DNA from: Karstenula rhodostoma CBS 690.94
Taxonomy: Eukaryota; Ascomycota; Dothideomycetes; Pleosporales; Didymosphaeriaceae
DNA length: 64,000 bases
Direction of reading: 5' to 3'
NCBI GenBank assembly: GCA_010093485.1
Contig: MU001503.1
Coordinates: forward strand, 318,224-382,223
Each line of letters starts with the position of its first letter. Position 1 is the stretch's first letter. This document shows, one piece after another, positions 25,219-58,466 of this stretch. The translations under genes were made by a program, and so were the position numbers. The notes under the pieces are model-generated. The model saw only the letters and a list, made by a program, of their open reading frames with translations, was not told the origin of the DNA and did no database searches.

Positions 25219-27983
25219 TGCCGCCACCACCTTCGCAATCGGGGCCTTTGCAGCCACTTGTTGTACAACCCGAGCCTTTGCAGACTCCATCTACACAGTT
25301 CGAGCCGGCACAGCCAATTGGAATGCAATCCAAGCCGGTACACAAGCCGTTGACGCAATTACCTCCTGTGCAGCCGAGACTGATGCAGAGGATTCCTATC
25401 CCGGTCAGTGGATATTCCCAGTTTGAGGAGCGGATAGAGGGTCTTTAACTTACCAGTACATTTCCCGTTATGGCAATCTCTACCAGCGCAACGGCCGTTT
25501 GTAACGGTTGGGAATCCAGTTTCGACTACACCTCCGGGAACCGTTGTCGATCCGGGGTTCTTGGTGGTAGTAGAGCCACCAATGACGGAGGTGGTACCGC
25601 CCGTAATCAAGGGGACAACTGTAGTTCGCGTGGATGTGGTTCCGCCGACCACGGTGACGAACGTGCTGGTAAATGTAGTTGTCTTGCCTCCAATGACGGA
25701 AGTAATCGTGCTAGTACGAGTAGAGGTGGTTCCGCCAACAAGAGTGGTTATCGTGGTCGTCGAGGACCCTGTCGTTGTGCCTATACTCGCGGGTACAAGA
25801 TCAGCTGAGTCACAAAATCGGGTGTATGTACGAAGTTTCCAGGTCTAAGACATAGCGACTTTGTACCGGGGAGTATCTTACCGCCGACAACGGTGGTGGT
25901 GCCTCCGATTACTGTGGTGCAGCCGGACTGACAGCCCTCCGCACAGTGAGCGGGTGTACTGCCACAGAAGCCTTCCTGGCTGCAACAACCTCCTGATGCC
26001 CATCCTCCGCAGAACATGTTGTTGTTGGTCGCACCACAGGTACCATCAGTTGTTTCGCCACCTTTCACACAGTCGCCTGATTGACAGCCTGAACCGCAGT
26101 GCGTATCGCTGTAGCCGCACCAGCCCCCGCTATAAATCGTTAGAAAAGTCACTGACCAAGACGTTGGGTTGCATCAAGCTCTACTCACGCTGAACAACAA
26201 TTTCCGGCGGACCAATCCCCGCAAACAGTGTGCCCATTATTAACACCACATGTACCGTCTGTAGTCACTTTGGGAGATAGACCGTTTCCAGCGCCTGAGT
26301 TGAAGTCGACACTCCAGGCCATAGTACCACCGAAGCACTGATCGTCCGCCCAAGACTTCTTACGTGCGATGGTGCTCTCGTCGTCGTAGCCAATCCATTG
26401 GTCATCCCAGGTGATTTCCATCATCATCGCGTCCGGGAGTTCTCGTGGTGTCAGGTTTTTCTTCTTAATCAAGTCTTTGATCTCGCTGAGACCCATAGCA
26501 CCATCTTGGTGAGTACAAGGACCGGCCTTGGAAGCGCCTGAGAAAGGGCAGCCTAACGTGTTGCAACTGGGGTCGGACATGGTAAAGCCCCTGCCATACA
26601 GTGCGACTCCAAAGTTGATCTTGGATGGATCCAGCTCATCGAACCAAAGAGGAAGCGTGTCATTCGCGATCTCGCGGATGTCCGATTGACCGCGCACGAC
26701 CGGGGTGATGGTCTTCTGGTTGATGTCCCAAGGGCCGTGTAAATCGTACGCCATAAAACCAAAAAAGTCGACCCACTTTTCCATGGCCTTCGCATCAAAA
26801 TATCGCAGATACCAGTAGTCGGGGGCCAAGGTCAAGCTAATACCGTACTTGGTGCCAAATACGGCACGCATTTCTTGTACGAGGAGAACGAAGTTCTTGG
26901 TATCGTCTTCATGTCCTCCGCGCTCGGGAGCCACAGGATATTCCCAATCCAGGTCGGCACCCTGGAAGCCGTACTTTGACATGAAGTCGACAAGCGACTT
27001 GATGAAAGCTGCACGGTTTGCTGAGCTCGAGCACAACTTGCTCCATGTTTCGTGTGTTGGGGTGGGTGATGGATCGCTGAAATCGAAGCCCCCAACTGCG
27101 ATCCAAGTCTGCAGGCCGCGACTCTTCAGAGCAGTGAACTCGGTGTAAAGCGGGATATCTGCTGCGGTCCCAGGTACTATGGAATATGAAATTGGGTCGA
27201 TCGATGCAAAAGCATAGTACAAGTGGGTGTATCCGTCCGAAACAATGTCGCTCGGGAAGATGTTGTTGCACCATCGGTCGCGAGTGTTGGACCCTTGATA
27301 GTAGCCAATTGTGCGTCCTCTCGAAGAGCCACTGCCCAAGCCGCAGGTCCGGCCTTTCTTCACCTCACACGAGCCAAAGCCATCTTGGCAGGGGAGTGTG
27401 TTGTGGACAGGATCACCGTTGTGACAATACAGTTCAGATGTACCGCACCAACCTGTCGCAGAGCAACATAAGTTCATGCCACACTTGACCTTCCCATCTT
27501 TGCTGTATTTGCCACACATCGCAGTCGCACCACAAGTGGAGCCAGTACAGTTGCCTGCGCCGCAGTTATCCGGACCGTACCCACATATGCCGTGGACGTT
27601 GCAACAACTTCCATCGGCGCAAGTTCCATCCGGCAAACACTTGGTCGCATCGCGGCGGACAAGACCAGATGTAAGGCTGGCCGCAAAAGAGATCATTTCC
27701 TGCTCAGCAGCAGCAGCTTGGTCAATGATTTTTGGCGGGGTGAACTGAGGGTGTTGATGCGTGGGGTCCATTAATTGAACAATCTCAGAGCCATTCGGGG
27801 CCTGGTTCCGTGTTTCTGGAAGCTGATTAGAGAGAGTGACTTAGATCTTCCAAGTTTCAACGTACCCAGGTCAACATTTCGTGATGCGTCTAGCCATGGC
27901 AAAACGGATGCCTGAGCTGACTTTACTCCTATATCTGTGAGTAGGAGAACCCAGCACGACTTGACAAGCGTCCGGAAAGCCAT
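23002..27983 (-). CDS. Killer-toxin-like (subgroup C) GH18 chitinase with multiple chitin-binding modules
   Basis: Secreted multidomain chitinase of the class resembling the Kluyveromyces zymocin alpha subunit. Exon 1 (27983-27866) encodes a signal peptide; intron 27816-27865 preserves frame. Two ChtBD1 (CBM18) modules come first (CNVHGICGYGPDNC; CCSATGWCGTSELYC). The GH18 barrel follows, from RTIGYYQGSN with catalytic GADLDWEYP (DxDxE intact) to GGTMAWSVDFNSG. Two more ChtBD1 modules follow it (GNCCSAGGWCGYSDTHCG; GCCSQEGFCGSTPAHC), then a Thr-rich VGGTTSTRT repeat region, a C-x-G-x-x-C repeat region, a poly-Asp run, and a long C-terminal domain ending LGQNCDRFYQQLAICRI. About 12 exons, roughly 1,400 residues. 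The intron at 25781-25881 is an introner-like element. The catalytic domain appears intact. Roles inferred from the class are antagonism of other fungi or wall remodelling. Confidence 0.85.
25173..25216. repeat. Coding trinucleotide repeat, poly-Asp
   Basis: About 14-15 tandem CGT/GTC units on the plus strand. Read on the minus strand they give a run of about 15 aspartates in the chitinase, right at an exon 3' end (donor GTGAGA follows). Length variation would be in frame. Confidence 0.9.
25781..25881 (-). mobile_element. Introner-like element, copy C (intron of the chitinase)
   Basis: A 101-nt intron in sense GTAAGATACTCCCCGGTACA to TACCCGCGAGTATAG. Splicing joins the Thr-rich exons (VVGG to TTTGSSTTT) in phase 1. 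It aligns without gaps to the intron at 44659-44759 in an unrelated gene on the opposite strand, with 12 differences by hand count. Just inside the splice sites are inverted repeats, ATACTCCCCGGTACAAAGTC and the complement of ATACTCGCGGGTACAAGATC. Confidence 0.85.
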
Positions 27984-28750
27984 CGTGAAAGGCGGCTCCT
28001 AGATACTGAGGTAGGTTGTTAAGATGTCGGAGGGTGATCCACGTTTATAAATGCTCGTTCTCAAGAAAGGACCAGCTTCAGATTCGGCACGTTTTCAGCT
28101 GGATGGGCGAGTAGCGAGATTGCATTCGGCATTCCAGATTGTCCCTGTCTTCAAAAAGCTTAGGGCACGAAGCTAATGGGTCATGTAGTATCCCATCGTA
28201 GTACTAAGAAGAAAAAAACGCTTGGATGCTGCTTCCAGATGCTCCTGAGCGCATTGTTTCTGCTCTCGCACGACACACTCTTCACACCACCAGTACTCGA
28301 GACCAATGGACTAGGCTATCCAAAGCTCCTACTTCACTTTACCCTTGCTAGTTGTGGAGCTGTACGGGAACAAGGCGTTCTTGCCGTCAGTGTGACCGCT
28401 GAACAGCCGCGGTTGTGCCTAAGTGAATGACATCCGTACTGCCATCGTTGTAGGAAACTGAGTTGTAATGGTAGAGCACAAAACGAACGTGTTTGCCGTG
28501 CATGTTTTATTTCGATGTAGTTCAATCAATGGAGTGTCTAGATCCGGGATGCACTGGCCCTCAAGTGGAATGACACTGCGTTATTTCAGAACTTGCCAGT
28601 TCATGTCAAACAATTCCACTATCCCGCATTGGTGTGGATAGCACCGCTCCGCAGCGTACCGAAGCCGATACCTAATCTGTCCGAGTGGCGATGGACTATT
28701 ATTTCCTAGTTAGACTACATACCCTTTGACGCCGGTGGTGGGCGTGCCGG
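27984..28750. promoter_or_regulatory. Chitinase upstream region
   Basis: About 770 bp upstream of the chitinase start with no recognisable gene. The open frame 28176-28430 is not supported. Promoter elements are expected here but I cannot name one. Confidence 0.35.
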
Positions 28751-28907
28751 CAACAGGTGGTGCAATAATTATTGAGCGCTCTAATGATGACTAATACCTT
28801 GCCACCCTAATTCTACTGGAGGAGATCAGATCTCGCAGGGAATATAGGGTGCCAGCTAATCGCGTTAAGCTCAGACCAGCGCTCAATAATTATTGCAACA
28901 CCTGTTG
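28751..28907. mobile_element. MITE-like foldback element, copy 2
   Basis: 157 bp with the same 30-bp ends as the element at 14226-14389 (CAACAGGTGGTGCAATAATT...GAGCGCT), one mismatch between its own two ends. In this copy the inverted repeat extends outward into CCGG on both sides. The core segment (TTCTACTGGAGGAG...CTCGCAGGGAA) is in the opposite orientation to copy 1. No coding capacity. Confidence 0.85.
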
Positions 28908-29354
28908 CCGGCCCTAAACACTCTGTAGAGGAGGGCCCGGAGGAAGAGCTTAATTCGATAAGCTTTGATGGCAGGAATAGGCGAGGATATGGGGGCGCAA
29001 ACAAGCGTCGTGCGAGAGCTTGGGAGAGCTTAGCTCTGGCAAATGATCAACGCCAATAAAATTGCCGGGCGTAAAAACACGGCGGGACGTTTCCAAGCCA
29101 CCAATTGAAATATCTCCGAGCATGGGAGCGTTGCATAAGGGGGTTGTGGGTCAATGGTTCTGCCTCGAGCGGCAAATGTGGATAATGTGTTGGGCTAACG
29201 GTTCCCCTGCAGGTACTGGTGCAGAATTCTCAAGGTGTCGAGATAGCAACGTGATGATTGTACGGGATGAGATTAAGTTGCAACTAGGATTCAACCTCTG
29301 CGGAACGCCTGCGCGGAAGGAGCGTCAAAGCATCTCGCGACTTCTTCATTGAAC
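28908..29354. other. Intergenic, no gene recognised
   Basis: About 450 bp between the MITE and the 3' end of the DUF3445 gene. Nothing recognised. Confidence 0.35.
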
Positions 29355-30876
29355 TCAGCTGATCCATTTCTTAACATCATCATCCTCGTCGTCCTCGGTC
29401 AAGACTACCGACTCATCATCGCGCGCCATCGGGAACTGTTCAATAAAACCCAGCACCGCTCTTCCCCAAAGATCTCGACCCTTTACCCTTGCGACATGGG
29501 CTGGCCAGCTCCTAATGTCCTTTGCTAGATGCCTCAGCTTGTGATCTTGCATGCGAACCAATGGCTCAATCTGCAGTCTCGTTGTCAGAACGATAGCACC
29601 CGAGATCGGCAGCCTTGTGAACATCTGTCGTTCAATCCGTGCATGCAGCGTCTCTGGCTGGAGGAAGCTGATATTGCCGGAGAAAAAGTCTTTGCTTTCC
29701 TGGATGAAGTACTTCTTCGTTAAATCAATTTCATGCGGGAGAGATGTCTGAATAAATGCGACATGGCGCTTATAGCGAGAGCTGTTGCGATGCTCGTCGA
29801 TGTATGAAAGGATCTCTGGAAGTTCTGCGAATAGTCAGTGGTCAAGCAGGTCCTTCGATTTGTCGCCCAACTTACTCTCCCAGGGTAGAACTGCCTCTTG
29901 TTGGCTCTCTACAGAATAGCCAACTCGAGCTCTAAGACGCCATCCTGAAGGAAAGCATGTCGCGCCTGCTAACCTGGTTTCATCAGCATACTACCTTGCT
30001 GAATTTGGACTGAACTGCTTACAAGGTGTACTGTGCGGAGAAAGGACTCTTGATGAAGATGCAAAAGTCCTCGCGAACCAGTCGCGCCATAGTGTCAAGC
30101 GTTAGCCATCCAAATGGACCATCAAGTGAATAGCTTTCTTTCGAATTGTCGTCATAAAGCATTCTCACTCCGTTCTCCTTCTGCTCCCAAAAACGCGCCG
30201 GGTATCTCATTGCGAGGAACTTCGCAACTTCTTGCCATAACTCTCCACATGCATTTTCAGCCTCCCTGCCTGGACGCATCTGAATGCAGTTTTCCCGGAA
30301 ATCTTCCAAGATCTGGTCGCGCGCCGTGATTTGCTCGTCATCGTGGTATGTCAGCCAGTCATCACGGGCCAGCTCACTGAGACCGAGATCTTCGAAGTTG
30401 TCGTAGTGCTGAGGGAAGTGCTGCTGATTGTACTCATCAGCTGGCATGTCGACAGGCATGTCCGGGAACTCGCTACCATCACCTCCATCGTCTTGCTCAA
30501 AGGCTGGGAGTCTCGAGATGCGCTTGCTTTCAAAAATCCGCTTTCGCAGGCTCGAGCTGTCGAATTCTTGCACCCTCTCGAAGCTCATTGTAGTGACGTC
30601 GCGATTTAAGTGCCGAGAGTCCACCACTTTCTGGCTCTCACGCCTGTTCTTCTCTTCCTCGCGGGCGAGGCGCTCGCGGAGGTATAACGGCTGGATGTCG
30701 TACTTCGGGAACTTTTTGTGGAGTTGACCATCATAATACCAAAGGCGTGCGAGCCAAGCACCGACACAGCAGCACCAAATGAAGAAGGTCCCCACGACGA
30801 TAAAGAGGAGTACGAACGGCACCCAGTCAACTGGGTCGTTGTGTTTGGCAGCACTGGAGGTGTCGTTGTATACCAT
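29355..30876 (-). CDS. DUF3445 / heme-dependent oxidative N-demethylase-like membrane protein
   Basis: The C-terminal half matches the DUF3445 family, whose bacterial members are heme-dependent oxidative N-demethylases: TCFPSGWRLRARVGYSVES, then the signature IERQMFTRLPISGAIVLTTR. An N-terminal membrane anchor (VPFVLLFIVVGTFFIWCCCVGAW) and an acidic linker precede it, as in other fungal members. Start MVYNDTSSAAKH at 30876. Intron 1 (near 29972-30021, GTAAGC to AACCAG) joins SAQYTL to LAGATCFPSG. Intron 2 (near 29826-29878) joins VLPWE to LPEILSYIDEH. The product ends DDDVKKWIS, about 470 residues. It is followed upstream by a P450 and a cupin on the same strand. The substrate is unknown. Confidence 0.8.
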
Positions 30877-31164
30877 GTTTAGGGAAGCAAGGCAGGAATA
30901 CTCTCTAAGCGACAAGAGAAAGACTGAAAAAAGACGTATAAGAATAGAAAGTTCGCGACCGCTCTTAGAGTGTAAATAACGCAGTGAATGGGATGTGACC
31001 GGTTCATTCACCTACGTCGGCGACACGATACTCACGAATGTGTATTGTAGATAAGAGTTTCTATTCAATCCAGAAAGCCATCCCCCTTCACTTGCACGTC
31101 TCTCAATAAAGCAAGCCATCCACTGGACTTGGTTCGGCTCCTCGACGTTTCCAGTCCATCTATT

Positions 31165-32898
31165 TCACACGTTTGTCCGCTTGACGCATACAATGCCTGC
31201 CGTATCAGGATCCTTGACCTTCAAAGATATGAAGTGTTCCACGTCGAAAGTCTTAAACCGTAAACGCTCTATAGCCTGCACCATCGACTCGCCCTTTGCT
31301 CTCGCTGGCTGAACATCGCATTCCCTCAACAGCCTTGCTATTGCCGCCACAAATTCCACTTGGCTGAACCTCTTACCGGGGCATGCTCTTGGCCCAGACG
31401 ACCACCCTACAAACTCTGCTCCATCTGGGGTCGCAAACTGCTCCTTTCCGGGCTGGCCTGCGCTCTTGATCCATCGGCTTGGTCGGAACTCGTCGACGTC
31501 CGAGCCCCAGACTGCCGGATCGAAGTGAACAGCGTTGTAGTTGATTGATACGAAGGTCTCGGGAGGGATGACTGTTTCGGTGCCGTTGAGCTTCAGGACT
31601 TGAGGCCTATCGCCGGTGTACTTGGGATGCATGGGAATTGCGCTGAAGAAGCGTTGTGTTTCGTACTATCGCGCGTGAGTGAAATCTTCCACACAGATAC
31701 CATCGAGGCTTACCATTAACGCCAGCGTTCGAACAAGCAATGGGAAAATCTCGCTGTAGTCTTCCGTGCCAATGTCAGCAAACACTGCGTCTACTTCCGC
31801 CCTCACCCAATTCTGAATGTCGGGGTAGGTGGCCAGCAAGGGGATCGCGTAGCTAAGCGACGAGGATGTCGTCTCATGTCCAGCCATGTTGAAAATAAAC
31901 AGATTGCCGTATAGTTCATCATCCGTTAATGCCAGTCGCTTCCCCTGCTCTCCATTCTTCTCTTCTTCATTCGCGCGCACGAGGGTGCTGATGATATTAT
32001 CCTTTGGCGCCATCCCGTTTCTCAACGCGTCGAGCTCTGCATCGACAGCATCTTTCAAGAACCTGCGCACTTCCTGCACGGCAACCTGGAGTCTCTTCAG
32101 CCCAGACGGTATAAATACGCTGGGTAACTTCGCCGCCGCAAAGATAACGGGCACAAGCATGATGGACAGGGAACCGATGCACGTATGCATCGCCTCACCG
32201 AAGCTGACGATGCGCCCCGGCTCCACGACCTTGACGCCAGTATCGAAGTCGTACTCTTTTCCGAACGCAGCAGACATGAGTACGTGCATCGCGATCTTCT
32301 CCGTATCGCCTCTTAGCCCGCGCAGGGTGATCTCGTCTTCAGCCATCCACTTCTGAACCATGCTATGGACCTGCTTCGTCGTAGCCTTCCACACAAGCCG
32401 CGAATTCGCCTCCTTGAATGCCGGGGCTGTGACCTTGCGATGTCTCGGCCAATCATCTCCATTCACACTGTTCACGTTCTTCCCGTACGCATTGAACATA
32501 CCGTACAGATCTGGATTCTTGATCCACACTCGCCAGTTCTTGAACATCTCCCTGGCAGCATCGACGTCTGAGATCATGATGTTGGTCTTGAACGGCGTGA
32601 CGAGGGCGAAGGCGGAGCCGTGTTTGGCGTGTGAGGCGAAGCGGTCGAACTGTGACCAGCCGATGGTCGTGTAGTCTATTGCGGTGCTTTCCCACAAGCC
32701 TATGCGGGAGAGGAGAGAGCGGACCTTGGGCCCGAAGAGCATCCAGATAGGGTCTTGCCATGACTCTAGGCGGATGATGATGGGGATGTTGAGGGAGCGG
32801 GCGGAAAGGTAGTTTCTGTAGAGGGCGTAAAGGCGGTTGGCAAAGATCAAAGCTGCTATTGCCGTAAGGGTGCAGCATGTTGTGAGGAGGAAGGCCAT
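31165..32898 (-). CDS. Cytochrome P450 monooxygenase
   Basis: Heme-thiolate monooxygenase, probably ER-anchored by MAFLLTTCCTLTAIAALIFA. Only one intron (about 31633-31712, GTAAGCC to TACGAAACACA side) joins LVRTLALM to YETQRFFSAIP. Motifs: substrate/C-helix DDWPRHRKVTAPAF (WxxxR), I-helix FNMAGHETTSSS, K-helix ETQR, PERF-like DEFRPSRW and heme loop WSSGPRACPGKRF with cysteine. About 550 residues. The first residue of the heme signature is Trp instead of Phe, a common variant in fungal families. It is unrelated in sequence to the P450 at 414-2291. Neighbours on the same strand are the DUF3445 gene (288 bp away) and a cupin (411 bp away), which could suggest a catabolic unit. Confidence 0.9.
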
Positions 32899-33309
32899 GG
32901 TAAGATATCTCGTAGAAGTGGTTTCTGGGGAAGGAGAGCGAGAGGAGCGTAAGAAGGCATGCTTAGGCGTCTTCAATATATACACACTGTGAGGAATCGC
33001 CCATAATGGATAACGTTTCGTGCTGACCAAAATAGAAACACCTGACTACAACGTATTCATTAGATGCAGTCATTGGTTGGCTCTCCATGCATTTGAAATC
33101 AAGGGTGGAATGCGTTATCGCCTTGAGACTTATGACCACTATTGCTGTTCTGTGTTTTGCGAAAGGAGCCTTGAGGCCCTGGCCGTGGGGCCCACTAGGT
33201 CTAGGCTAGCGCTGACCTCAGAAAGGCGCATCAACAAAAGGTACCACATTAGGAAAGGTGTCCAAGCCATCTCATCATCCATTGCTGCCCTTTCACGATA
33301 GCTCCTAAA
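32899..33309. promoter_or_regulatory. P450 promoter region
   Basis: About 410 bp between the P450 start and the cupin stop. Nothing specific recognised. Confidence 0.35.
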
Positions 33310-33898
33310 CTATTTCTGCTTGGCGACCTCGTCCATGAGCGGCTTAGCAGGCATCGTCGCAAATCTCGCCATGACCTCCAAGTTCTTCTCCTTGCTCATC
33401 TTCTCATCACTCTTGCTGACCTCGGCCAAGATCTTGAAGTAGTCGATATAAAATGCAGGCGTAAACGTGTTGAAGAACTTCGCCTCCACTTCGAAGGGAT
33501 TTGAGAAGGTGTGCGGTGCGCGTATGGGTACCGTCACGTAGTCACCCACTTTGGCGTCGACGATGGTATTGTCGGGTGCGTGGAAGCGAACGGTGCCCTG
33601 TGTAACCAGGAACGTCTCGTCATGCATCTCGTGCCAATGCGCAGGAGGGCCTGCGGTTCCGGCCGGGACGGTGAATTCGGCGCTGCCGATGCGGTTGTCT
33701 TGGACTGTCAGTCGGACGGAGGGCATTGGACGGTCTTGAGAATGAGATGGTTGGTCTACCCGTTCGCGAGCCGTCTTCCATGACTCTGCATGTTATGTGA
33801 CCTAGCTTGAGAATCTCGCCCGATTTCGCAGGAACAAAGTTGATGGGTCTTCGCGGCATGTCCATCTTGGCGAGAGCTTGTCGGGCTTCGTCGTCCAT
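33310..33898 (-). CDS. Cupin-domain protein
   Basis: Small single-domain cupin of about 177 residues; such proteins are often metal-dependent dioxygenases or isomerases acting on small aromatics. Cupin motif 1 is PAHWHEMHDETFLVTQG, with two spaced histidines, a third histidine and a glutamate, and motif 2 is GDYVTVPIRAPHTFSNP, so the metal ligands are all present. One intron, 33705-33759 (GTAGAC to TGACAG), joins MEDGSRT to VQDNRIGS. Start MDDEARQALAKMDMPRRP at 33898. No signal peptide. It is co-oriented with the P450 and DUF3445 genes. Confidence 0.85.
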
Positions 33899-34041
33899 GA
33901 TGGCGATGAGGGTAGAGTGAGTAACTGGATGTGTTTATGGTTTGGAATTGCGACTTGAAATCATACGAGATGGCTTGTACACAGGACTCGAGGAGGAGAA
34001 TGGACCGACGACGCGAGGAGGAAGCTAATATACGGCAGCAG
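33899..34041. promoter_or_regulatory. Cupin promoter
   Basis: Short upstream stretch between the cupin start and the TIR element at 34042. Nothing specific seen. Confidence 0.3.
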
Positions 34042-34373
34042 GTACTACTAGGCGATTGCAAGAAATCCGGAGCTCCTGCGGCGCTAGTACGTCCTAATTG
34101 GGAAACGCTAGCAACTAGCGCGCCTAGTCAGCAGCAATTTTTCGCAATTCTCTTCTTTTTTTTTCCTCTATTTTCTTATATTTGCGCCCTCTATATATAA
34201 TAAAAAGTAGCTAAAAAGAATTTAATATATAGCTATAGTATTTAAAAGTATTTATTTACTATTAGAAAGTTTAAAAATATAATATTACGTGAATATAGGA
34301 TTTTTAGTGTTCCTGCCCCTGCAGAAACGTGACTTTCACGTGAGCTCCGGATTTCTTACAATCGCCAAGTACT
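34042..34373. mobile_element. TIR-bounded AT-rich element
   Basis: A roughly 330-bp segment with inverted ends: left GGCGATTGCAAGAAATCCGG followed by AGCTC (34051-34075), right the reverse complement with one mismatch (34342-34366). Its middle (34140-34310) is strikingly AT-rich compared with the surrounding DNA. No coding capacity. This fits a MITE or a decayed transposon remnant whose interior has been AT-biased, possibly by repeat-induced point mutation. It lies between the cupin and ubiquitin hydrolase promoters. Confidence 0.7.
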
Positions 34374-34584
34374 GCGGAGAGCCGATCAAGCTGCAAGGCG
34401 GCCAGATGCGGTTAGTGCGGGGAGGGTAGGCCTCCCCCGAGTGACACTGGAAGCTTCAGGCAATACAGAAACGCGTCACGCTGTCGCCTGTCGCTCTTTG
34501 ATCTCTACTAAACCCACCACTCACGCAGTATCCAACAGAACCACTCCCCACACTGTACGAACAGCTTCGGATCAACCAGCAACA

Positions 34585-35313: not shown

Positions 35314-35527
35314 GTCCTTCCAATCGAGTCTGGTCTAGCTAATTCTTCCGGGCAAACTTACGAATACCAGAGATGAGGGTCGGAATCGGAGCGGCATCGC
35401 TATTCGGTCGTCGGTTCGTTGGGCCGATACCGGAGGCCGCGGCTGGTAGCGGGGTGCGTGGGGTAATCTCAGCCACGAGAAACGTTTTTGAACGCGCGAC
35501 TGCCCTCTGATTCTGTAAAATTGCAAA

Positions 35528-41729: not shown

Positions 41730-41735
41730 CTGTCA

Positions 41736-44407: not shown

Positions 44408-45199
44408 ATGGTCACCTGGTATCCCCGCGACACCCGCTGGCACGGCGTCCAGAAACACTACTTCAACGTCTCGACCTTCAAGTCCCTCGTCCTCGTCGTC
44501 TATGTCGTCCTCATTATCGTCGAAAGCAGCCTCATGCGCCGCTGGTTCCGAGAGGGAAACAACGACCTGAGCACCACCTCTGGACCGTAAGCCTTGCGCC
44601 CGCACACTTAACCCCAAAGTCATCCACTAATCCAGCTGCAGATGGGCATTCTGGGCCCGTAAGATACTCCCCGGTACAAAGTCGCGATGTCTTAGGCATG
44701 GTAGCTTCGTACGTCAACCCTCTTTTGTGACTCAGCTGACTTTGTACCCGCGAGTATAGGCACGGGCATCTACCTCATCATCGACGCCGCCTTCTCCCTC
44801 ACTATAGCGTATTTCATCATGAGAAACAACTGGCACCCCGTCGCTGCACTCGTAACCTCCATCCTACTGTTTGGCCTGTGGTTCGCGGGCTGTGTACTCA
44901 ACGCCTTTTCTGTGTACAACAACGAGTACTACTTCAAGCAAATGGATGAATGGAGGGGCATCGTATATGGGGAGGCGGGACTGCAGGGCACGATCGCGGC
45001 GTCCTACATTGTTATGACGGGGTTCGCAGCGAAGGCGGTGCATGAGTGGAGGAAGAATAAGGCTGGGATGAATGTCAAGAGCCAGGCGGATCGCAGGGTT
45101 GATGAGTTGGTTTTGGAGGAGAGAGGGGAGGCGAAGGAGAGGGTGAGTGAGGGGGATTTTGTGCAGAGTGGTAATGAGGGACAGGGGAGGGCATTCTGA
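44408..45199 (+). CDS. Four-pass integral membrane protein, uncharacterised
   Basis: Family not recognised with certainty; the layout resembles small fungal four-transmembrane (MARVEL-like) proteins. Membrane segments: SLVLVVYVVLIIVESSL, TGIYLIIDAAFSLTIAYFIM, PVAALVTSILLFGLWFAGCV and GTIAASYIVMTGFAA. Exon 1 ends at 44586; intron 1 (44587-44641, GTAAGC to GCTGCAG) is conventional. A 17-nt micro-exon (44642-44658) encodes PWAFWA. Intron 2 (44659-44759) is an introner-like element. The join gives SGPWAFWARTGIYLI. The C-terminal tail is charged (RKNKAGMNVKSQADRRVDEL). About 210 residues. Confidence 0.75.
44659..44759 (+). mobile_element. Introner-like element, copy B
   Basis: A 101-nt intron from GTAAGATACTCCCCGGTACA to TACCCGCGAGTATAG in the four-pass membrane-protein gene (phase 1). 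It carries inverted ends, ATACTCCCCGGTACAAAGTC and the reverse complement of ATACTCGCGGGTACAAAGTC (18 of 20 match). It is about 88 percent identical by hand count to the intron at 25781-25881 and also aligns with 58096-58196. Removing it would merge a 17-nt micro-exon with the next exon. Confidence 0.88.
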
Positions 45200-47443: not shown

Positions 47444-47906
47444 GCTAACGAGCGTGTCGTGTAGCCCGTGGGAGGGCCCGTTGCGATTCAATGGCTGCTT
47501 GATGCTGGCGTTGGAGCCGTGTCGCAACCTGCCGCATGTGACGTTGGTGCTTGGCGCATCCACGCTTCTTCGCTCGCCCCCAGGCCTCCTGCTCCCGACA
47601 CCACTCCTCTCGAGATTAACAGTACACGCTTGAACATTTCCAGTATAGCCCTGCTGGTATTCAATTCCCTGCCTTGTCTGCACCACATATTTCAATCTGC
47701 CGGCAGTGGCGTTGGCCCAGCATTTCAATCATGATAGATTACTACACCTAGAGCACCTGAACAACAACCGGTTGAACCGTCATGATGCTTTTTACAGCTG
47801 CGGGACGCCCGGACGCACCCCACAATGCAGTTGTCATAAAGCTTGACTACGAGATGGCCAGGAATATGCTCTATTGCATAGCTTGTATTGACTACAGCTC
47901 ACCGAG
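47444..47906. promoter_or_regulatory. Shared divergent intergenic region (DHODH / GH28)
   Basis: About 460 bp between the heads of DHODH (minus) and the GH28 gene (plus). The frame upstream of the DHODH start is open to 47728, but the first ATG with a presequence-like sequence is at 47443. Confidence 0.35.
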
Positions 47907-49407: not shown

Positions 49408-50173
49408 GATGAGATGTGCCACGACATGTCAAGCCCTTTCTTATGTAACAACCCTCAATCGACGTCGAGACTCTTGATTCCGTGCTATTGGTGATGATTC
49501 GCCCACCCAAACTGATACTTGACCTGCAATGTATGTACCATGTGGCCAGTTGTGGAGGTCTTCCGAGCTGGTACGGCACTTTGCTCACAGGATGGGTAAG
49601 TTTCTCCCTAACTCACCAGAAAACCTCTCACGCAATATATCTGGCACGACACGAATCTGAGTATACGTCTTCCGTCCTTGTCACCGCGTCGTCCTATGTT
49701 GCACCTGCTGTGCCCCTGCTTACGATCACGGCTATCGGCACAAGGAGCCTCCCGCTTACCAGAGGGGACAAAACGAAGCTCTTGCGCCTCAAACTGTGAC
49801 TGCTTCTTCAATTATACTTCGAAGCCTTTCCAATAAGATGCTTGTGTTCTCTATGTTGTTTGCTCTATAGATCGAAGAGGGCACCGGGGGCTGTGCAGAA
49901 GCGTGAGTATCCATTGTGGCGCCTGCCAACCAGCTGAACTGCGCACAACCTTTCTATTACGACCAGCTCACAAAGCTAGGAGGCAAGGGCTACCCGTACG
50001 TCTCCGTGGGCAGATCTCACTGTCCGTTGCGCCCGAATACACTCGACATCACTTGCTCACCTCAGCAGTTCCAGAAAGTTCGGCTGCCGCCACACAAAAG
50101 ACAGGCGCGACCCCCCGCGCCTCGCCCCACCATCGCGTGCTCCCTAACCCTTGGGCTCCGAGCCACGTCGACG
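49408..50173. other. Intergenic: GH28 3' end and CHIP promoter/5' UTR
   Basis: About 770 bp. The frame of the next gene is open from 49916, but that stretch has no TPR-like character and the first convincing start is 50174. Nothing else recognised. Confidence 0.4.
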
Positions 50174-51110
50174 ATGCCGCCAGGCAACGAATACGCGGCG
50201 GACCAGCTCAAAAACCAGGGCAATGCGCACTTTAAGAATGGCGACTACGACCAGGCAGAAGCGCTGTACGGCCAGGCCATCCAGAAGAACAGCAAGAACC
50301 CGCTGCTGTTCACCAACCGCGCCAATGCCCGCCTAAAGCTCGAGAAGTGGGAGGGCGTCATCAACGACTGCCTGGCCAGCATAGAGCTGATGACGGAGAA
50401 CATGAAGGCATATTTCTATCTGGGTATGTGAGGGTGCAGCCGCGTGGTGGAGTGTACCAGAGCTGGGCTGACGTGTCTCTGCTGCAGCGCAGGCGCAAAT
50501 CGCCATCAACCACCCCAACGAAGCGCTCAGCAGCGCGCTCCGAGCGTACGATCTCTGCGTCAACTCCACCCAGCAGACGTCCAACGCAGCCACCATCTCC
50601 GCGCTAGTCACCCGCTGCAAAAAGGCAAAGTGGGACATCCGCGAGCGCGAACGCATACGGCGCCGCAAAGGCCTCCTCCCCGAGCTCGAAGCATCCCTCG
50701 AACTCGCCCACAAGAAAGACGTCGACGACATCGAAGCACGGTTTGAAGCCGGCGAGATTGGCCGCGTCGAAGCCACCGAGGAGAAACAACAGCTCCAGAC
50801 AGAGTTCGAGCAGAAGCGCGACGACCTACGTACCGCCTTCGCCCTGTCCGACCCTGAGAATCTCGAGATCCGCGAAGTGCCAGACTACCTCATCGACGGC
50901 ATAACTTTCGAAGTGATGACAGATCCGGTTGTCACCAGAAACGGACGAAGCTACGAACGCGCGACTATCATCGAGCACCTGAAGAGGAGCTCGACAGATC
51001 CGCTGACAAGGGAACCGTTGACGATCAATGAGCTGAGGCCAAACATTGCGCTGAAGGAGGCGTGTACCGAGTTTATGGAGAAGAACAAGGGCTGGGTTTA
51101 CGAGTGGTAG
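50174..51110 (+). CDS. CHIP/STUB1-like TPR and U-box ubiquitin ligase
   Basis: Co-chaperone E3 ligase that ubiquitinates Hsp70/Hsp90 clients; the family is missing from baker's yeast but present in filamentous fungi. TPR units are visible: ADQLKNQGNAHFKNGDYDQA, then YGQAIQKNSKNPLLFTNRAN, then RLKLEKWEGVINDCLASIEL. After intron 50425-50487 (join YFYLAQAQIAINH) the third TPR and a charged coiled-coil (KAKWDIRERERIRRRKGLL) follow. The U-box runs from VPDYLIDGITFEVMTDPVVT to DPLTREPLTINELRPNIAL. It ends ENKGWVYEW-like (KNKGWVYEW), a conserved CHIP ending. Start MPPGNEYAADQLK at 50174. About 290 residues. Confidence 0.9.
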
Positions 51111-51615
51111 GTTGCAACCTCCATCGGCATCGGGTACGGTGTGAGGACCAAGAAGGATGGGGGATATGAAGCGGCTTACTTGTGGCTGCTGACACTAAGC
51201 AGTGAGGACGGTGAAGAGGATTCGGCGCCGCGGTGGGCGCATCTCTCTTGCGGCAGAAGAGACTACGGGGCGAGCTGAAAGGAACTGCACCGATTGAGCG
51301 AGCATTGCAAGGAGTTGGAACCAAGAGCACTTTCGCTGGAGTTTGGATACCCATGCCGTATCGTCGAGGCTGTATTTGACCGTGAGCCACGCCTGGATCT
51401 GAAATACAGTTGAGGAACCGTGGCGGTTCTCTCGGCATGTTGTAGTCTGTGTATTCATACACTATGGTGGTAACATACTGTGCTGTCAGCTTGTGGTGTC
51501 ATCCACTTTCCAGCTGCACAAGCCGCACTAAAGTATCAAAGGGTATAATCCCAAACGCCATCCAACCATTCCCATTCAACGCCAAACCCAAACACCACAA
51601 CCAGCCCATGCCACT
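51111..51615. terminator. Convergent intergenic region
   Basis: About 500 bp between CHIP and the RS-rich gene, 3' ends facing. Nothing else seen. Confidence 0.3.
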
Positions 51616-52179
51616 CTACCCCTCTTGTACGGCAGCAGTCGCCCCCTGCTTCACCTCCACGCCCTTCTCCTTCTCCGCCCCCTGCCGGTACATGTTCGGA
51701 TAACTCCTCAGCCGCCTAATCGCATTCTCCACATCCTCCCTCCCGCGCTCCCGCCCCCGACTAGGCGGCTGACTCCTCTTCCTGACCCCCCTCTCCCCCT
51801 CCCGCTCTTCCTCCCCCTCCGCAATCGGGCTCCGACTCCGACTCTCCGACCGGTTCCTCACGCGCCCGCGGAACGTGTGGTCCGGCTCTGCGTCGCTGCG
51901 CCGGCGGTTCTTCTTCGCGGCCGGCGGCGTCTCGATGAACGTAGACGACGAGGACGAGGCGCGCTGGTGCTTGCGGTAGTGGTGTCTGTGGCGGCTGCCG
52001 GAGTCGCGGTCGTGGCCGCGCGAGGGGGAGGATGCACGTGGGGGCGTGTGCGAGGAGAGGCGGCCGCGCTTGAGACGGCCGCGGGGGACGTCGTCGCCGT
52101 GGACGGGGTCGTTGGGGGCAGGTGGATTGGTGGGGACGGCTGTGGGGTCGTCGTGGGGTTCGGGTGGTGTGGATGCCAT
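51616..52179 (-). CDS. Arg/Ser-rich protein of unknown function
   Basis: A single frame of 187 residues from MASTPPEPHDDPTAVPTNPP, strongly biased to Arg, Ser, Glu and Pro: PRGRLKRGRLSSHTPPRASS, RVRNRSESRSRSPIAEGEE, KRSQPPSRGRERGRED, then a less biased end, VENAIRRLRSYPNMYRQGAE. The RS and RNRSESRSRS stretches suggest a nuclear, splicing-associated or otherwise disordered protein. The GC-rich composition could also produce a spurious open frame; the ordered C-terminal helix with NMYRQG supports a real gene. No intron seen. Confidence 0.55.
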   Translation of the reverse strand: MASTPPEPHDDPTAVPTNPPAPNDPVHGDDVPRGRLKRGRLSSHTPPRASSPSRGHDRDSGSRHRHHYRKHQRASSSSSTFIETPPAAKKNRRRSDAEPDHTFRGRVRNRSESRSRSPIAEGEEEREGERGVRKRSQPPSRGRERGREDVENAIRRLRSYPNMYRQGAEKEKGVEVKQGATAAVQEG

Positions 52180-54292
52180 GGTAGGATGTATGGAACCTCT
52201 GGTGAGGGTGCTTCTAGGATTGGGTTGTGTCTGCAACAGCTTGAGATGCTATGGAGGCTCTCGCAGGAGACACGGTGTGGGAAGACATCTGACTGTCTGA
52301 GACGGTGCGAGGTCCCGTGCAGGAGGGGGCAGTAGCGTTGTGTTGCTCGTGTGACGCCGTGCGCGGTGATCTGACCGCGAGGCGTCATTGGGATGGGAAG
52401 GATGTGCGGCTAGGCCGGATAAAGAGAGAGGCGTGATGGCCGTAGCGTGAACGACACACGGCTACCGTTGGGCGGCTGGCGGGCGACCTCACACAACGTC
52501 ACCGCCATACTTCGTTTCATGTAGACAGGTGTGATATACCTGGCCATGGTTTCCTCGATGGGTGTATGGTCCTGGGCATATCTTGCCTTTCTACTGGCAA
52601 TCGTACTGCTTTCCCTCGTTTACTTGCTCTTTTACTTGCCCGTCGGCTAATCTACATGACCGGATATCTCGAATTCCGCGCTCGGGGAGGTATTCAACAA
52701 AGGAACAGTAACAGAGCCCATCTCGACGCCACTGCATCGTGGTTGGTTCCCCTGCCGCGTATGTATCCGCGTACCTGGATGCACCTGAGAGCGCGGTGCA
52801 TTCGAAGCGCCTCCTCGGTGCGAGGCTCTCACACCGCTGCTTCGGATTGCGCGCAAAGAGACCGCGCAAATCAGGATCAGGGGGGCAGGTGCCTTCACAA
52901 GGAGAGGAGTAAGAGGCGACGAACCATGTGGACGCATTGGTGGACCGGTATTCTATCGTCCGCGTCCCGTGCGTTGGCATTCGCCTGTTCTCAAACTCTG
53001 CAAAGGGTGGACATGCACACGATAATGCCCCAAGGCTTGGACTAAGGCTTTGCTACGAGATTACAGGTCGAGGCACTATGGGAAGGCTATCGTCGTCAGT
53101 TGTCTCACAGCCTCGAGCAAGCCCCATATTCAAGGCGCACCGGACTTCTCGGAACTTTCAGCCTCGTCCCGACACGTGGTAGTTCAATGCCCCTTTCCTG
53201 GCCCTAGCAACGCAGAGAACGCCGTAGCTGCATCCCGAGCGCATGCTCCCGCTCCGTTCTCAGCCTCGACCCAGCGCTCGAAGTTCCCCTTGTGGCCTGA
53301 TTGATGATGATTCCCTCGATTGCAGCCTCGATAAAGACCAACTTTTGCTTCTTAGGTCATGAGATCATGTGCGATCTGATTCATTGGCCATGCTGCGTTT
53401 TGCCCCGTCTGCCTTTTTGCTTTTATACACCTTAACGCATCGAGTCCTTAATTCTATAAAGATTGGAAGGAAAGGAATTCTTCCGTCTTCAATCGCAACG
53501 CAGTATTGCCCCCAACGTCAGTTTTCATGGAAATATATAAAATACGGCGTCGCCCGCGGGTACCATCCGCCAGGCCATGGATATCCAATATCGGCTCATC
53601 ACGTGCCATATCTTTCAAATATGTTTCCAATGCCTTCGGAAAATGATGATGTCTGGATTGGAGACTTGGGCCGACCGAAATCGACTGTTGTTGGGCGAAG
53701 CTTGACAAGCACTTCATCGAACTTACCAACCAATTATAATTAAAGGTGCCATCCTCATCACCACGCTGCTTCTACGACTTCTGATAGCCGAGAACACTTT
53801 ATATACGCTTCTCCAGACGAACCATACAGTGAAGCAGGTCAGGTCATTATATAAGGACCTCACTCACTAGATTGCTACTGGTGTAGATGCTTCGGCAGTG
53901 CTACGACTTAAGGGGATAGCTGGGTCTATACACAAATGCTGCTCATATCCATACGGTAGGCAACTCCAATCACGACCAGTCACCAATTCCGGATACAGCC
54001 TGCGGAGTAGCCTAGACTGGTGGATGTACTTTCGACAACGACACCCTTGTAATGTCGCCTCAGTCTTCAATCTGGGTATGTTACACATATTCATTACTTC
54101 ACCACGTAGTTCTAAGTCAGACCTCGGCATACAGTCAAGTGGCCTCGACCAAGCGTATCCGATGGTGGGACAGTCGTTCGTGGATATGGGCGCCTGTGAA
54201 TAAGACGTGAATGCGCAATTCCAGTCAAAATTCGACTTTGAAAACCTGAACATGGAACCCTCTCATGGCACCCTTCAACCACCTCAGACGAA
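52180..54292. other. Gene-poor stretch of about 2.1 kb
   Basis: Upstream of both the RS-rich gene and the zinc-finger gene, so both promoters are here. Open frames at 52566-53045, 53369-53743 and 53867-54253 lack family resemblance and splice support. No repeats recognised. Confidence 0.45.
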
Positions 54293-54908
54293 ATGAACTT
54301 TGCTACACTGGATACGGCGTTCCTCTGGTCCGTCGATGGTTACCAAAGTGCCCTTGATGTTGCAGGCAGTGCCCCTTATGATGAGAACGGCGAGACTGAA
54401 TCGGCTCCATGGTATCAACTCCAAAGCATCGGCGCAGACCAGTCTACATCTTTGCGGTATGAGCTGCCTCCCTATGGAGGTATGCCTACCAATGATACCA
54501 GTGTAGACCGGCTCCCTGATAACCAGCTCGACCCCAACAGTGTGTCTTCTACAGGTACCTCGTCGTGAGTTTGCCATTCACTTGCTCTGTTTTGTATCCT
54601 CGTTGCTAATCTGATTTTCCAGTTCGGGGAGTCCGCAGTCACAGTCCTCCGCACGCGAGCGCCGCTTCCCTTGTCCTCACCGTCCCTGCGAGGCTCGATT
54701 CGCCTCTAGAAACGACCTTGAACGCCACCTCGGCACGCGAAAACATCGGAAAGACGAGGGCAACTGGAGTGAGCGCGCCAACAACTATCCGTGCAAAGTT
54801 TCCGCATGTAAGAGGAAAAATAAAGGGTTCGCAAGGAATGACCATTATCTCAACAATCTTTGGAGGATGCATCCAGGCCTTGAGCTTGACGAGGACGTGT
54901 ACGGTTGA
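54293..54908 (+). CDS. C2H2 zinc-finger protein
   Basis: Probable nucleic-acid-binding protein, perhaps a transcription regulator. Exon 1 encodes an acidic, Ser/Thr-rich N-terminus (MNFATLDTAFLWSVDGYQSA). Intron about 54566-54622 (GTGAGT to TTTCCAG) joins GTSS to SGSPQSQSS. Two fingers follow: CPHRPCEARFASRNDLERH with a second histidine in LGTRKH (C-x4-C-x12-H-x5-H), and a variant finger CKVSACKRKNKGFARNDHYL ending WRMH. This RERRFPC...FARNDHY pairing is common in Dothideomycete C2H2 proteins. About 185 residues, ending ELDEDVYG. Confidence 0.75.
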
Positions 54909-55458
54909 GAGAAGTTGTGAGTTCCTGCTCTTTGTTAGCATGGCATGGCATGCGCAAAGTTAGCACAGCCAGCCATGATCTTTCCCGAAAGATCAGAGCC
55001 GGATGGATCGGAATTTTGGCGTGACCTGCTTCTTCCATTGATGGATGCCCGTGGTCATGGCACTGTCTCTTGATACCTGCCAAACGCCCAGTTTGCACAT
55101 TGTTAGGTATCCGCTACACATGTATCCTACCCCCAGCATTATTCAAACCCTTGCATTGCACAAAAGCGAGCTGACAGGTCTTAACCTTTAGCGTGAGATA
55201 CAGTGTAGTTCGATTCGCCAATTGGTTCGCTACGCCAACTAGCCCCATTCACACCACCATACCTAATGCGGTAATCCATCGTAGGAGCTGGTTCGCTCGC
55301 AAGGCAGGCGGATTCAAGCGCTATCGAAGGTCAAATAAATCTCTCCAGATCAGAATCTGCGTTGCAAAGGTTTTCCCACGCTGTTTCGTATTTCCCCTCA
55401 CGGCAAGGTTTTGTTTAGTTTGTAACAGGAATCTCGCATCAGCAATCAATCAATCAAG
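54909..55458. promoter_or_regulatory. Upstream region of the PAQR gene
   Basis: About 550 bp without a recognisable gene. It ends with CAATCAATCAATCAAG immediately before the start codon, a short tetranucleotide repeat. Confidence 0.35.
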
Positions 55459-56555
55459 ATGCCCCGAATACTATCCTTCGACGAACTGCCCGCATGGATG
55501 AAAAAGGACCCGCGCATCCGAAGAGGGTACAGAGAGGAGCTCCGCAACGTCTGGAACTGCTTTCTGTCGCTCTTCTACATCCACAATGAATTCGTCAACA
55601 TCTGGTCGCACCTACTACCGGCGCTCGTGTACGGGACAATTCTTGCGAAAGAAGCTCGCTTTGCTCTGGTAGACAGCAACAGCGACACTGGGCCGGAGAA
55701 AAAGTTGATTCGGTTCTACGTCGTCACCAGTTTCGCTCTAATGTCTCTTTCGGTACGTACTGTGTGATGGTCAGCCAACATCATTGACAAGAGACAGAGC
55801 ATATACCACATCTTCGGCGCCCATTCCGAGCGCGTAGCACGTCACGTTTTGAAGTTGGATTACCTTGGGATAATACTTAACGTATCTGCGACATGGCAAG
55901 TCTCCCATACAAACCTACTCGAATAGAAGACAAAGGGTCTTTTGTTTGACTGTTGAGCTATGAGCGAAGTGCCATTGCAGCACCCATCTGAGACATACGC
56001 TGACTTGTACCTCCGGGTTGGTAGTATAACAAGCTCGTGGTTTGGCTTTAGACATCACGCTCACGTCGCCAACATGTACATGAGCCTCACGTTGGGATTG
56101 TCCATCGCTATCGTGTTTCTATTGCTCAAGCCGAGTGCCGACGGTCCCAAAGCTGCGAAGTGGAGGTTAGAATACTCTCTACATTCGCCATCATCAACAC
56201 TAACCTGATACTACATAGGGCCCTGATCATCGCCGGACTGATGGCAACGGGCTACACGCCTCTGATGCACGCGTATCTGGCTGGTGGTATCGAGAGGCTG
56301 CAGCATTTCCCCTGGCAGGCTGCGGTAAAAATGCTCTCCGCCGATCTCGTTGGGGTGCTTTTCTACATTACCAGATTTCCTGAGAGTCGGTTTCCCGAGA
56401 CATTTGACATCTGGGTAAGTCTGTGCGCTGGTCTCATGCTGTGTTTCCGCTAAGAAGTGCGATAGGGTGCGAGCCATCAGATCTTCCACATCACGGTGGT
56501 TGTGGGGCGGGTCGTGTATCTTCGTGGCTTGAAGGAATTGGCCGGTCTTGCGTAA
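55459..56555 (+). CDS. PAQR/IZH (hemolysin III-related) seven-pass membrane protein
   Basis: Progestin/adipoQ receptor family protein; the yeast IZH members act in zinc and lipid homeostasis. Start MPRILSFDELPAWMKKDPRI. Family motifs: IRRGYREELRNVWNCFLSLF, YIHNEFVNIWSHLLPALVYG, SIYHIFGAHSERVARH, LDYLGIILNVSATC, and the last-helix zinc motif GASHQIFHITVVVG (H-x3-H). Introns: about 55754-55797; about 55894-56030 with donor GCAAGT and acceptor TTGGTAG (GC-AG type, provisional); about 56166-56218; about 56415-56464. It ends RGLKELAGLA. About 290 residues with several hydrophobic segments. Confidence 0.82.
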
Positions 56556-56772
56556 GGGACGCACTGTATCCGAAGCGCCGCCTACCGAGCTATCTTATAA
56601 AGATACTTCAGCGCCTCGATATAGTATCTGCGGGAGTAAGGGTGAAGTCACTGTTCTGGTCTGTGAGGACAGTCGTAATCACTTCTCAATAATCGAGCTC
56701 GTATATCTAGACCAAGTCGCTCATATGCCATATGCTGTGTTCAAACAATCCCGCACAGTAACCCCAGATCCG

Positions 56773-58466
56773 CTAATGGGCAATCTGGAGTCCTTTCAGG
56801 GACACGCTGGCCCTCACAGTCGCTCCGTTACCGACATCGAACGCATTCGCAACACCATCCGGCCCGTTGAGCACATCCGCAAAGGGGATGTCAACAGCAC
56901 CAGTTTCAGTCTCCTTGTTCAGCAGCGCAATCCTGAAACTTGCTCCGCTGTCCAACAGATCCCTTGTGACGGGGATGCGGAAAGCCTGGTCGAAGGAAGG
57001 ATTGAAGATGTCAGTGCCCGGAGTGTATGTCTTGACCGCAGTACGGAACTCCTTGGCACCCCAGGTCACCTTGACGCTGGGACGGAGCTCATCACGCTTC
57101 CCGTCCAGACCAAGTACACTGGCGACGAGTACGGTAGCCAGACCGCAGAACTGACCCTCTCCTTGACTGTCGGAGGTAGAGAGTGCCGAGGCATCGCTCA
57201 CGAGGTTGAAGAACTTGGCATGCACCGTTAGGTGAGCTCCGGTGGGTTCGCCCTTGTGCGAGAGAGCAATGTCCTTGCTTCCACCACCCAGCAAGATGTC
57301 TTTGATGGAGATGGAGCCCTCGCCTATGTCATCATCCGCGCCGACATCGTCATCGTCGACATCAAGGACGATGTTTTGGTCGAAATCCGAGACAAGGAAA
57401 TCGCGCGTTTCGTTCCATTCCGGGTCACGGTCGTTCTTCTTGGTCGTCGTGCGCCACACCTCCTCAGCACCCACGGTTACTTTGCAGTAGCAGTCAGGTA
57501 CATCCTTGACAATCTTGGCCAGAAGTCGTTTCGCGCCGCTCTTCTTCGGCCCTGCGATGCCGACAGCTCGTTCTATGGTCACGCGCACGACGCCAACGTG
57601 GGGTTGGTAGGTCTTGAACCAGTCACTGGAGTTGTCGAGTTTGACGAGGAAGCGATTGGGAAGAACGGCCATGCCGCCAATGATGCCGAGGATGGTTTGG
57701 CGGACAGTACCTGAGATGATTCCCAGATCGGCAATGTTTGCAGCGTCGGTGAAATCGAGATCGAGCTTCGGAGGGTTGATGAAAGCAACCTGTGCAGCGC
57801 CAATCTATCCCCACGTTAGCATATGGCGACCTTGCGGGAAAGAACCGCTTACGCAAGGGATCACGGTCGTCAAAGGAGCGAGGAGGACCGACAGTCTTCC
57901 CTTGAGGTGGATACGCTCGATGCCCTGTTGTCATGTAAGTAACGTGTAACACTGTATAGGAAGGCTAATATCCACAATCTTGGGGACCATGCTGCCGTCT
58001 AGCTCGATGTCGCTCTTGCTATCCCAAGTCACGTCCATCTCAAGCTGAATTCCTCCACCGGAGGTCTTGTGAGTGTCTACCTCTGAGAGATGCATCTATA
58101 CACGCGGGTACAAAGTCAGTCAAGTCAGAAAAGTGGGGCAAGATACGAGGTATCTATGTCTAAGACATAGCACCATCGTGCCGGGGCGTAACATACGGGA
58201 ACATCACCCAGATCGATCTTGACGAATTTCAAATTTTTCAGCGGGCCTGGGAGAGTAGAGGCTAGGATGGGCTCGACGATATCCTTCACCATCTTACAGC
58301 CAGCGATGTTGATGTTCGGCCATAGCTGAGCAACGAGATCGTTGAGAAATCCTGAACGCGTGTCAGTCGATATGATCAGGTAGTCAATTATCTGGTCAGC
58401 TGTACCAGCAGACTCTGTGCCGCCAGAAGCGTTCAGCGTCTGGGCGAGGGATCCCATGTTATCCAT
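56773..58466 (-). CDS. SMP and double-C2 domain protein (extended-synaptotagmin-like)
   Basis: Likely lipid-transfer or membrane-contact protein. Start MDNMGSLAQTLNASG at 58466. The SMP domain follows: FLNDLVAQLWPNINIAGCKM, LPGPLKNLKFVKIDLGDVP, then after the introner MHLSEVDTHKTSGGGIQLEM and INPPKLDLDFTDAANI. Two C2 domains: VGVVRVTIERAVGI with Asp-rich loops (DRDPEWNETRDF), and FCGLATVLVASVLGLDGKRD. Introns: near 58347-58396 (GTACAG to GTTCAG), 58096-58196 (introner, phase 0), about 57918-57974 and about 57805-57852. No N-terminal membrane hairpin as in yeast tricalbins. It ends SVSLKGLQIAH. About 465 residues. Confidence 0.8.
58096..58196 (-). mobile_element. Introner-like element, copy A
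   Basis: A 101-nt intron, sense GTATGTTACGCCCCGGCACG to TTGTACCCGCGTGTATAG, splitting the SMP domain between LGDVP and MHLSEV in phase 0. It is exactly the same length as copies B and C and aligns without gaps, but is more diverged, mainly in the 5' arm. It contains an internal hairpin CTATGTCTTAGACATAG shared in part with the other copies. Confidence 0.8.

Follow-up and report, generated by a model that had tools for sequence, protein, structure and literature searches.

A family of 101-nt introner-like introns with inverted-repeat arms in the genome of Karstenula rhodostoma

The origin of new spliceosomal introns is unsettled, and for the introners of fungi it is disputed whether they spread by an RNA or a DNA route. 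In a 64,000-nt stretch of contig MU001503.1 of Karstenula rhodostoma CBS 690.94 (G000:C12:318224-382223; this whole stretch is called the window), an earlier note described three alignable introns of 101 nt in three unrelated genes and likened them to the introner-like elements (ILEs) of Dothideomycete fungi. Do these introns belong to a mobile family and, if so, how has it spread? The genome-wide search that the note had proposed, carried out on the 44.3-Mb assembly (29 contigs), yielded not just three but at least 83 distinct copies, counted after merging of the listed places and with both halves of a fold-back locus (L104) included. An introner-like family with terminal inverted repeats (TIRs) and many copies in this member of the Pleosporales is thereby supported, and the element is almost certainly an introner family. 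We further consider it probable, with moderate confidence, that the family has been active recently and perhaps still is, RNA-mediated insertion into the sense strand being favoured over a cut-and-paste miniature inverted-repeat transposable element (MITE).

The three introns were recovered where the note had placed them, on both strands, each exactly 101 nt long with GT...AG ends and all mutually alignable without gaps. Between copies 1 and 2 there are 12 differences, in line with the hand alignment of the note, which gave about 12, and copy 3 is indeed more diverged, being 74% identical to either; the identities to the family consensus are 92, 91 and 79%. The inverted repeat ATACTC[CG]C[CG]GGTACAAAGTC, claimed for both ends of all three, is unaltered in both arms of copy 2; the 3' arm of copy 1 carries two changes and the 5' arm of copy 3 is degenerate. 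In the consensus the arms form 18 pairs and stop 5 nt and 2 nt short of the 5' and 3' ends of the intron, the 5' splice site is mostly GTACG or GTAAG, and the branch site is CTGAC, whose A lies 20 nt upstream of the last G. Each copy reads as a complete U2-type intron that would be spliced. The features, with arms assigned by sequence, are as follows.

25781..25881, minus strand: introner copy 1, 101 nt, GTAAG...ATAG, in a GH18/chitin-binding chitinase-like gene (genome G000:C12:344004-344104)
25857..25876, minus strand: 5' inverted-repeat arm of copy 1, element positions 6-25
25783..25802, minus strand: 3' inverted-repeat arm of copy 1, element positions 80-99
25800-25804, minus strand: branch-site-like CTGAT of copy 1, overlapping the 3' arm
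44659..44759, plus strand: introner copy 2, 101 nt, GTAAG...ATAG (genome G000:C12:362882-362982)
44664..44683, plus strand: 5' inverted-repeat arm of copy 2
44738..44757, plus strand: 3' inverted-repeat arm of copy 2, with branch-site-like CTGAC at 44736-44740
58096..58196, minus strand: introner copy 3 (older), 101 nt, GTATG...ATAG, in an SMP/C2 (extended-synaptotagmin-like) gene
58172..58191, minus strand: 5' inverted-repeat arm of copy 3
58098..58117, minus strand: 3' inverted-repeat arm of copy 3, with branch-site-like CTGAC at 58115-58119

With the consensus as query, 71 first-look candidates were obtained and the best 40 of the 71 were scored; with copy 3 as query there were 49 candidates, of which the best 40 were scored. 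All those scored matched. Genome-wide, the 24-base 3' end occurs at 64 places with up to three mismatches, the 5' end pattern at 53 and the repeat arm at 108 with up to two mismatches, against 0, 0 and 1 in the reversed controls, and because these counts so far exceed the controls the similarity cannot be ascribed to chance. Seventy-two copies were read in detail (71 of the 83 plus one more in the locus L049), the other 12 of the 83 standing outside the detailed counts. As aligned, 66 of the 72, one of them half of L104, begin with GT and end with AG. Without the L104 half, 65 such copies range from 62 to 99% identity to the consensus; the 40 at 90% or above are termed young and the remaining 25 older, and the 17 below 86% are termed old in the pairing test. 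One pair of copies, in different host genes, is identical in sequence.

The copies are clustered. Their mean density is one per ~530 kb, yet ten neighbouring pairs lie less than 20 kb apart, including the L104 halves and the L049 group, and four copies fall within 44 kb at G000:C12:344004-388295 (the three in the window and one 6 kb beyond). L049 (near G000:C8:1546555-1547940) holds three same-strand copies in ~1.4 kb, possibly within one transporter gene, one of them without the usual 3' end. L104 (400-620; G000:C7:1510785-1510916) is a fold-back of two 3' halves joined head to head at a central palindrome, ATGTCTTAGACAT; the halves apparently come from two subfamilies, the fold-back as a whole starts with CT, not GT, and neither strand is clearly coding. 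A lone arm at G000:C7:249430-249449, outside the 83 copies, is possibly a further degenerate copy.

The strand of each copy relative to its gene, another point raised by the earlier note, was called with a codon model trained on the host exons with the tested copy left out; a copy was regarded as decided when the strands differed by more than 10 bits, and the L104 pair was excluded. The sense strand scored higher in 66 of 70 copies and by more than 10 bits in 57, and the antisense strand was favoured by that margin in none of the 70. With this and the 83 copies, those of the note's refuting outcomes that were assessed did not arise. Pfam families (E up to 1e-4) were recognized on 32 of 60 exons read on the introner strand (two of the 60 being the L104 halves), 28 of the 32 reaching or exceeding Pfam's own cut-off, and on none of ten long antisense open reading frames (ORFs) from the first thirty loci. 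The coding fraction of the window is estimated at 0.44, and a related genome is 50.75% coding (PMC8872350; papers cited by PMC number are represented here by parts of their text). If about half of the genome is assumed to be non-coding and only sense-exonic and intergenic copies survive, about one third of the copies would be expected in sense exons; on this assumption the probability that all 40 young copies lie there is 8e-20, a figure that serves as a guide only and presumes all 40 to be decided. By Pfam the identified hosts, the plasma-membrane H+-ATPase among them, fall into many different families. This argues against ordinary introns that came to resemble one another through gene duplication, gene conversion or convergence, as do the end of similarity at the splice sites and the little information shared outside the copies (at most 0.09 bits per position beyond +1 to +5); that explanation is already contradicted and has a negligible chance of being correct. 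Two of the hosts, at L093 and L051, are of the small nucleolar ribonucleoprotein/spliceosome kind: one belongs to the L7Ae family and by eye resembles SNU13, and the other has a Nop domain.

In the earlier note the intron was taken for a short TIR element with ends that also act as splice sites. The TIRs stand, and the DNA transposon that this description implies fares less well. Such a transposon would be nonautonomous, an introner of the MITE type with TIRs of 18 pairs, mobilized by a transposase supplied in trans and leaving no or a hidden target site duplication (TSD), its genic sense copies being the remnant left by selection. Consistent with this are the TIRs, which are intact in young copies, the target motif beside the insertion, the fold-back L104 with GCA on both sides, and the 78.5% of introner families outside ascomycetes that carry TIRs or TSDs according to the available part of a survey (PMC9860276). 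The joints were assessed in five host proteins against solved relatives (PDB), and the joined exons align without a gap across the junction in PMA1 (versus 1mhs), gamma-glutamyltranspeptidase, an OYE-type FMN enzyme and a desulfurase-like enzyme; at the copy 3 site, four annotated orthologues (of 120 among the matches listed) read G[DAN]VP-[ML] in register. By these alignments insertion in the tested hosts is seamless, four of the five joins being gapless. No TSD was detected, no paired 5'/3' flank similarity rising above chance (best z 3.4 of 1255 tests), and identity of the single flanking nucleotides occurred in 26 of 65 copies versus 20.1 expected (standard deviation 3.5). Of the 108 arms, 100 were listed and 99 of these lie inside or adjoin the 83 copies; only two inverted arm pairs have a spacing above 150 bases and below 15 kb (3.9 and 12 kb), and both join arms of separate short copies. 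A longer or autonomous element with the same ends was thus not seen in this assembly among the 100 arms, at up to two mismatches per arm. Besides the missing TSD and longer element, a transposon has to face the complete absence of antisense copies among the 57 decided, though about half of the related genome is non-coding (PMC8872350, in part), and its symmetric ends give no reason to avoid intergenic DNA. We therefore consider a DNA transposon unlikely.

What the insertions share on the exon side was examined in the 53 copies with a decided frame against a codon-position background. At +1, G was found in 22 copies (11.6 expected) and C in five (14.7 expected); C occupied +2 in 37 (17.7 expected), A occupied +3 in 27 (13.6 expected) and G occupied +5 in 25 (14.4 expected). 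The dinucleotide CA at +2+3 follows 27 of 66 copies, versus two of 17 predicted ordinary introns, a control that is weak at this size, and 7.4% of exonic positions; judged from these flanks, insertion prefers sites whose downstream exon has CA at +2+3. Of the young copies 32 of 40 have the +2 C, of the older ones 10 of 25 (Fisher p 0.0015), and CA at +2+3 accompanies 20 of 40 and six of 25, respectively. Since the +2 C falls with the age of the copy, it is not a standing need of splicing, and it looks like a target-site mark. Phases 1, 2 and 0 are represented by 35, 12 and six of the 53 copies, and equal phases are rejected (p 1.7e-6); [G/T]CA in the host exons has phase shares of 0.54, 0.24 and 0.22, which fit the copies (p 0.12), and the target preference can account for the phase-1 excess. 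A first phase count (20/35), based on the longest open frames, was replaced, as at least L026 was mis-framed by eye. The target mark also bears on the model put forward for the stwintrons of Hypoxylaceae, in which hairpin intron RNA, once excised, becomes ligated into a double-strand break in the course of its repair and is then turned into DNA, so that breaks and not sequence set the sites. Seamless insertion, a near-terminal stem and decay of the repeats with age all match the accessible portions of PMC8469720 and PMC12403724. The model predicts random sites, whereas CA at +2+3 is enriched here, with the +2 C most frequent among the young copies; a one-sided target mark counts against purely random break repair, which we regard as decidedly improbable.

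The hairpin and the splice signals age differently. RNA folds of three younger copies gave z from -3.1 to -5.4, and in the folded copy L004 the branch-site A lies inside the stem. The paired fraction is 0.939 in the 40 young copies and 0.722 in the 17 old ones, where 0.718 is expected for independent arms; eight intermediate copies belong to neither group. Among 31 sequences no pair had changed on both sides, and among 65 sequences seven cells had changed on both sides and remained paired, 44 were kept by a change on one side and 147 were broken, so that there is no sign of pairing kept after insertion. Of the copies missed by the 5' pattern, 19/20 still start with GT; of those missed by the 3' pattern, 13/14 have a CTRAY branch-like site and 11/14 end with AG where the alignment ends, the other three having another AG nearby by eye. 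In the GT..AG copies of these two groups (17 and 11) the arms had changed in 87/340 and 39/165 cells, the latter at positions 83-97 in 11 of the 14, where the middle had changed in 83/550 and CTGAC in 3/55. Because the arms decay while GT, CTRAY and AG mostly stay, it is the splice signals that are maintained, not the hairpin, whose role is probably in spreading rather than in splicing. An apparently slower change of the 3' arm than of the middle among old copies (0.141 versus 0.285) was set aside as ascertainment in view of the 39/165 and 83/550 cells above, and GT and AG change counts (2/34 and 3/22) were not used, the alignment having been limited beforehand to GT..AG copies.

Gain of an intron can be followed at copy 3, which lies in its host protein between ...GDVP and MHLSEVD.... 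The ORF upstream of this copy reads through the introner as VCYAPARWCYVLDIDTSYLAPLF, and a search with this read-through ORF returned 60 related proteins, many resembling unspliced gene calls from contigs, so that the comparison with relatives is one of protein sequence only. By a script rule 31 of the 60 run straight through the site, and 11 more (classed 'other') do so by eye; the anchor is absent in 17. P0256, among the 31, is an annotated protein and hence uninformative on introns, and P0241 and P0242 visibly run through the preceding ordinary intron and are therefore genomic and without the introner. P0243 continues as VRYAPARSRYVLDI..., which we read as the same introner at the same site. 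For copy 3, the comparison of relatives suggested by the earlier note thus found the site empty in several and filled in one. On this evidence the insertion occurs also in one environmental relative, is missing in others and marks an intron gain.

As to the host genes named in the note, the chitinase label of copy 1 holds, its exons having GH18 and chitin-binding domains, and so does the SMP/C2 label of copy 3; the 'four-pass membrane protein' assigned to copy 2 was not confirmed, the downstream exon being without a Pfam match. Two further ORFs belong here.

26185..27771, minus strand: ORF upstream of copy 1, with GH18 and Chitin_bind_1 domains
56776..57672, minus strand: C2-domain ORF downstream of copy 3, 91% identical to Paraphaeosphaeria minitans

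We infer that the first forms one gene with the exon adjoining copy 1. A second window protein is 94% identical to P. minitans, and from these two proteins a place in the Didymosphaeriaceae, Pleosporales, would be expected. An Rfam search of the window gave no match, nor did a scan of viral contigs with the introner 3' end. Other shared repeats, considered as candidates for additional introner families, were set aside by eye: a palindromic MITE-like element of 169 bp with two copies (window 14222-14390 and 28744-28912), by eye unlike the introner; a 108-nt repeat, 88% identical between window 3141-3248 and L074 2070-2177; and a repeat of 76-91 nt, ~79% identical (window 12758-12833, L001 1165-1254 and L019 211-297), two copies of which are readable by eye as a Cys-containing peptide.

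How, then, might the family spread? Sense placement, full length, the lack of a TSD and a dispensable hairpin together suggest an RNA intermediate returned to the coding strand, and an RNA route appears somewhat probable. The intron would be spliced out of the host transcript, and its hairpin of 18 pairs would stabilize the freed linear RNA and keep its two ends together. This RNA might then re-enter the coding strand of a gene under transcription, either through reverse splicing into an R-loop or transcript or through insertion of the RNA at a nick; conversion to DNA and fixation would follow, and the CA mark may be the trace of a cleavage or priming step. After insertion, selection would act on the splice signals only and the copy would decay into an ordinary-looking intron. 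Several points weigh against this account. TIRs and a sequence-specific target are also typical of DNA transposons, and we infer both the splicing and the RNA intermediate from sequence. Six of the 72 copies are not GT..AG as aligned. The strand is undecided in 13 of 70, the antisense score equalling or exceeding the sense score in four of the 13; by ORF length alone the sense strand was longer in only 54 of 65, and a first codon model with a 15-bit margin decided only 48 of 72 (all 48 sense), both calls having been superseded by the leave-one-out model. The CbbX-like AAA host aligns with a one-residue gap beside the junction, and the GCA flanks of L104 may be a 3-bp duplication. At +1 only G is enriched and T is not, and G/T at +1 is equal across ages (29/40 young, 18/25 older). 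Finally, the hairpin of an old copy is not significant as an RNA fold (z -1.4).

Among published systems the nearest are the ILEs of Capnodiales (van der Burgt 2012; Torriani 2011; as told in parts of PMC4457414, PMC8469720 and PMC3443670), which are described as transcription-linked with stable folds (PMC4457414, PMC3443670). The present family shares with fungal ILEs many near-identical complete introns in unrelated genes, placement in the sense only among decided copies, seamless insertion and, for copy 3, a site that is empty in relatives. It belongs to a different order and is likened to them by description. Capnodiales ILEs are reported to favour AG/GY sites and certain codon phases (PMC8469720, in part), a preference that the CA mark partly resembles. 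Because inverted repeats or stable folds have already been reported in fungal introner-like elements (Torriani and van der Burgt, as told in part of PMC8469720), the architecture itself is not new. The stwintrons of Xylariales have TIRs and, in the portions available, no site bias (PMC8469720, PMC12403724). Like those of Hypoxylaceae, the present copies insert seamlessly without a TSD and have (near-)terminal inverted repeats, which are intact in the young and degenerate in the older ones; unlike them, each is a single 101-nt intron with 18-pair arms and with a site and phase bias that those papers, as far as available, did not see. By eye, the consensus shows none of the features of [D1,2] stwintrons or their cropped sisters: there is no TTTCTAGAAA palindrome, and no second nested intron was recognized. 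The introners of Alternaria alternata and other ascomycetes (PMC9860276, in part) are alike in direct insertion without a TSD and unlike in TIRs, and the MITE-like TIR/TSD introners of algae and dinoflagellates in the same survey have TIRs in common with this family, which differs from them in having no TSD, carrying both splice sites and showing no antisense copy among those decided. The suggestion that the sequence family may be new appears correct within the papers listed for introners with the Pleosporales and for names of the host family: no description of this family was found there, in a coverage without most subscription papers and all bioRxiv preprints.

The family is small enough for a full catalogue and includes two identical copies, and its TIRs contrast with the statement, in the available part of the survey of Gozashti 2022 (PMC9860276), that ascomycete introner families lack TIRs or TSDs. 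Three age-dependent marks, the inverted repeats, the target motif and the splice signals, separate what is needed for moving from what is needed for splicing. A more specific reading, which we put forward tentatively, is that a spliceosomal intron may be mobile through its own RNA into a preferred coding-strand site (CA at +2+3), with the hairpin required for mobility only. If this is true, the mark on one side of the site would be left by reverse splicing or a target-primed step, and the process would come close to retrohoming in a nuclear setting.

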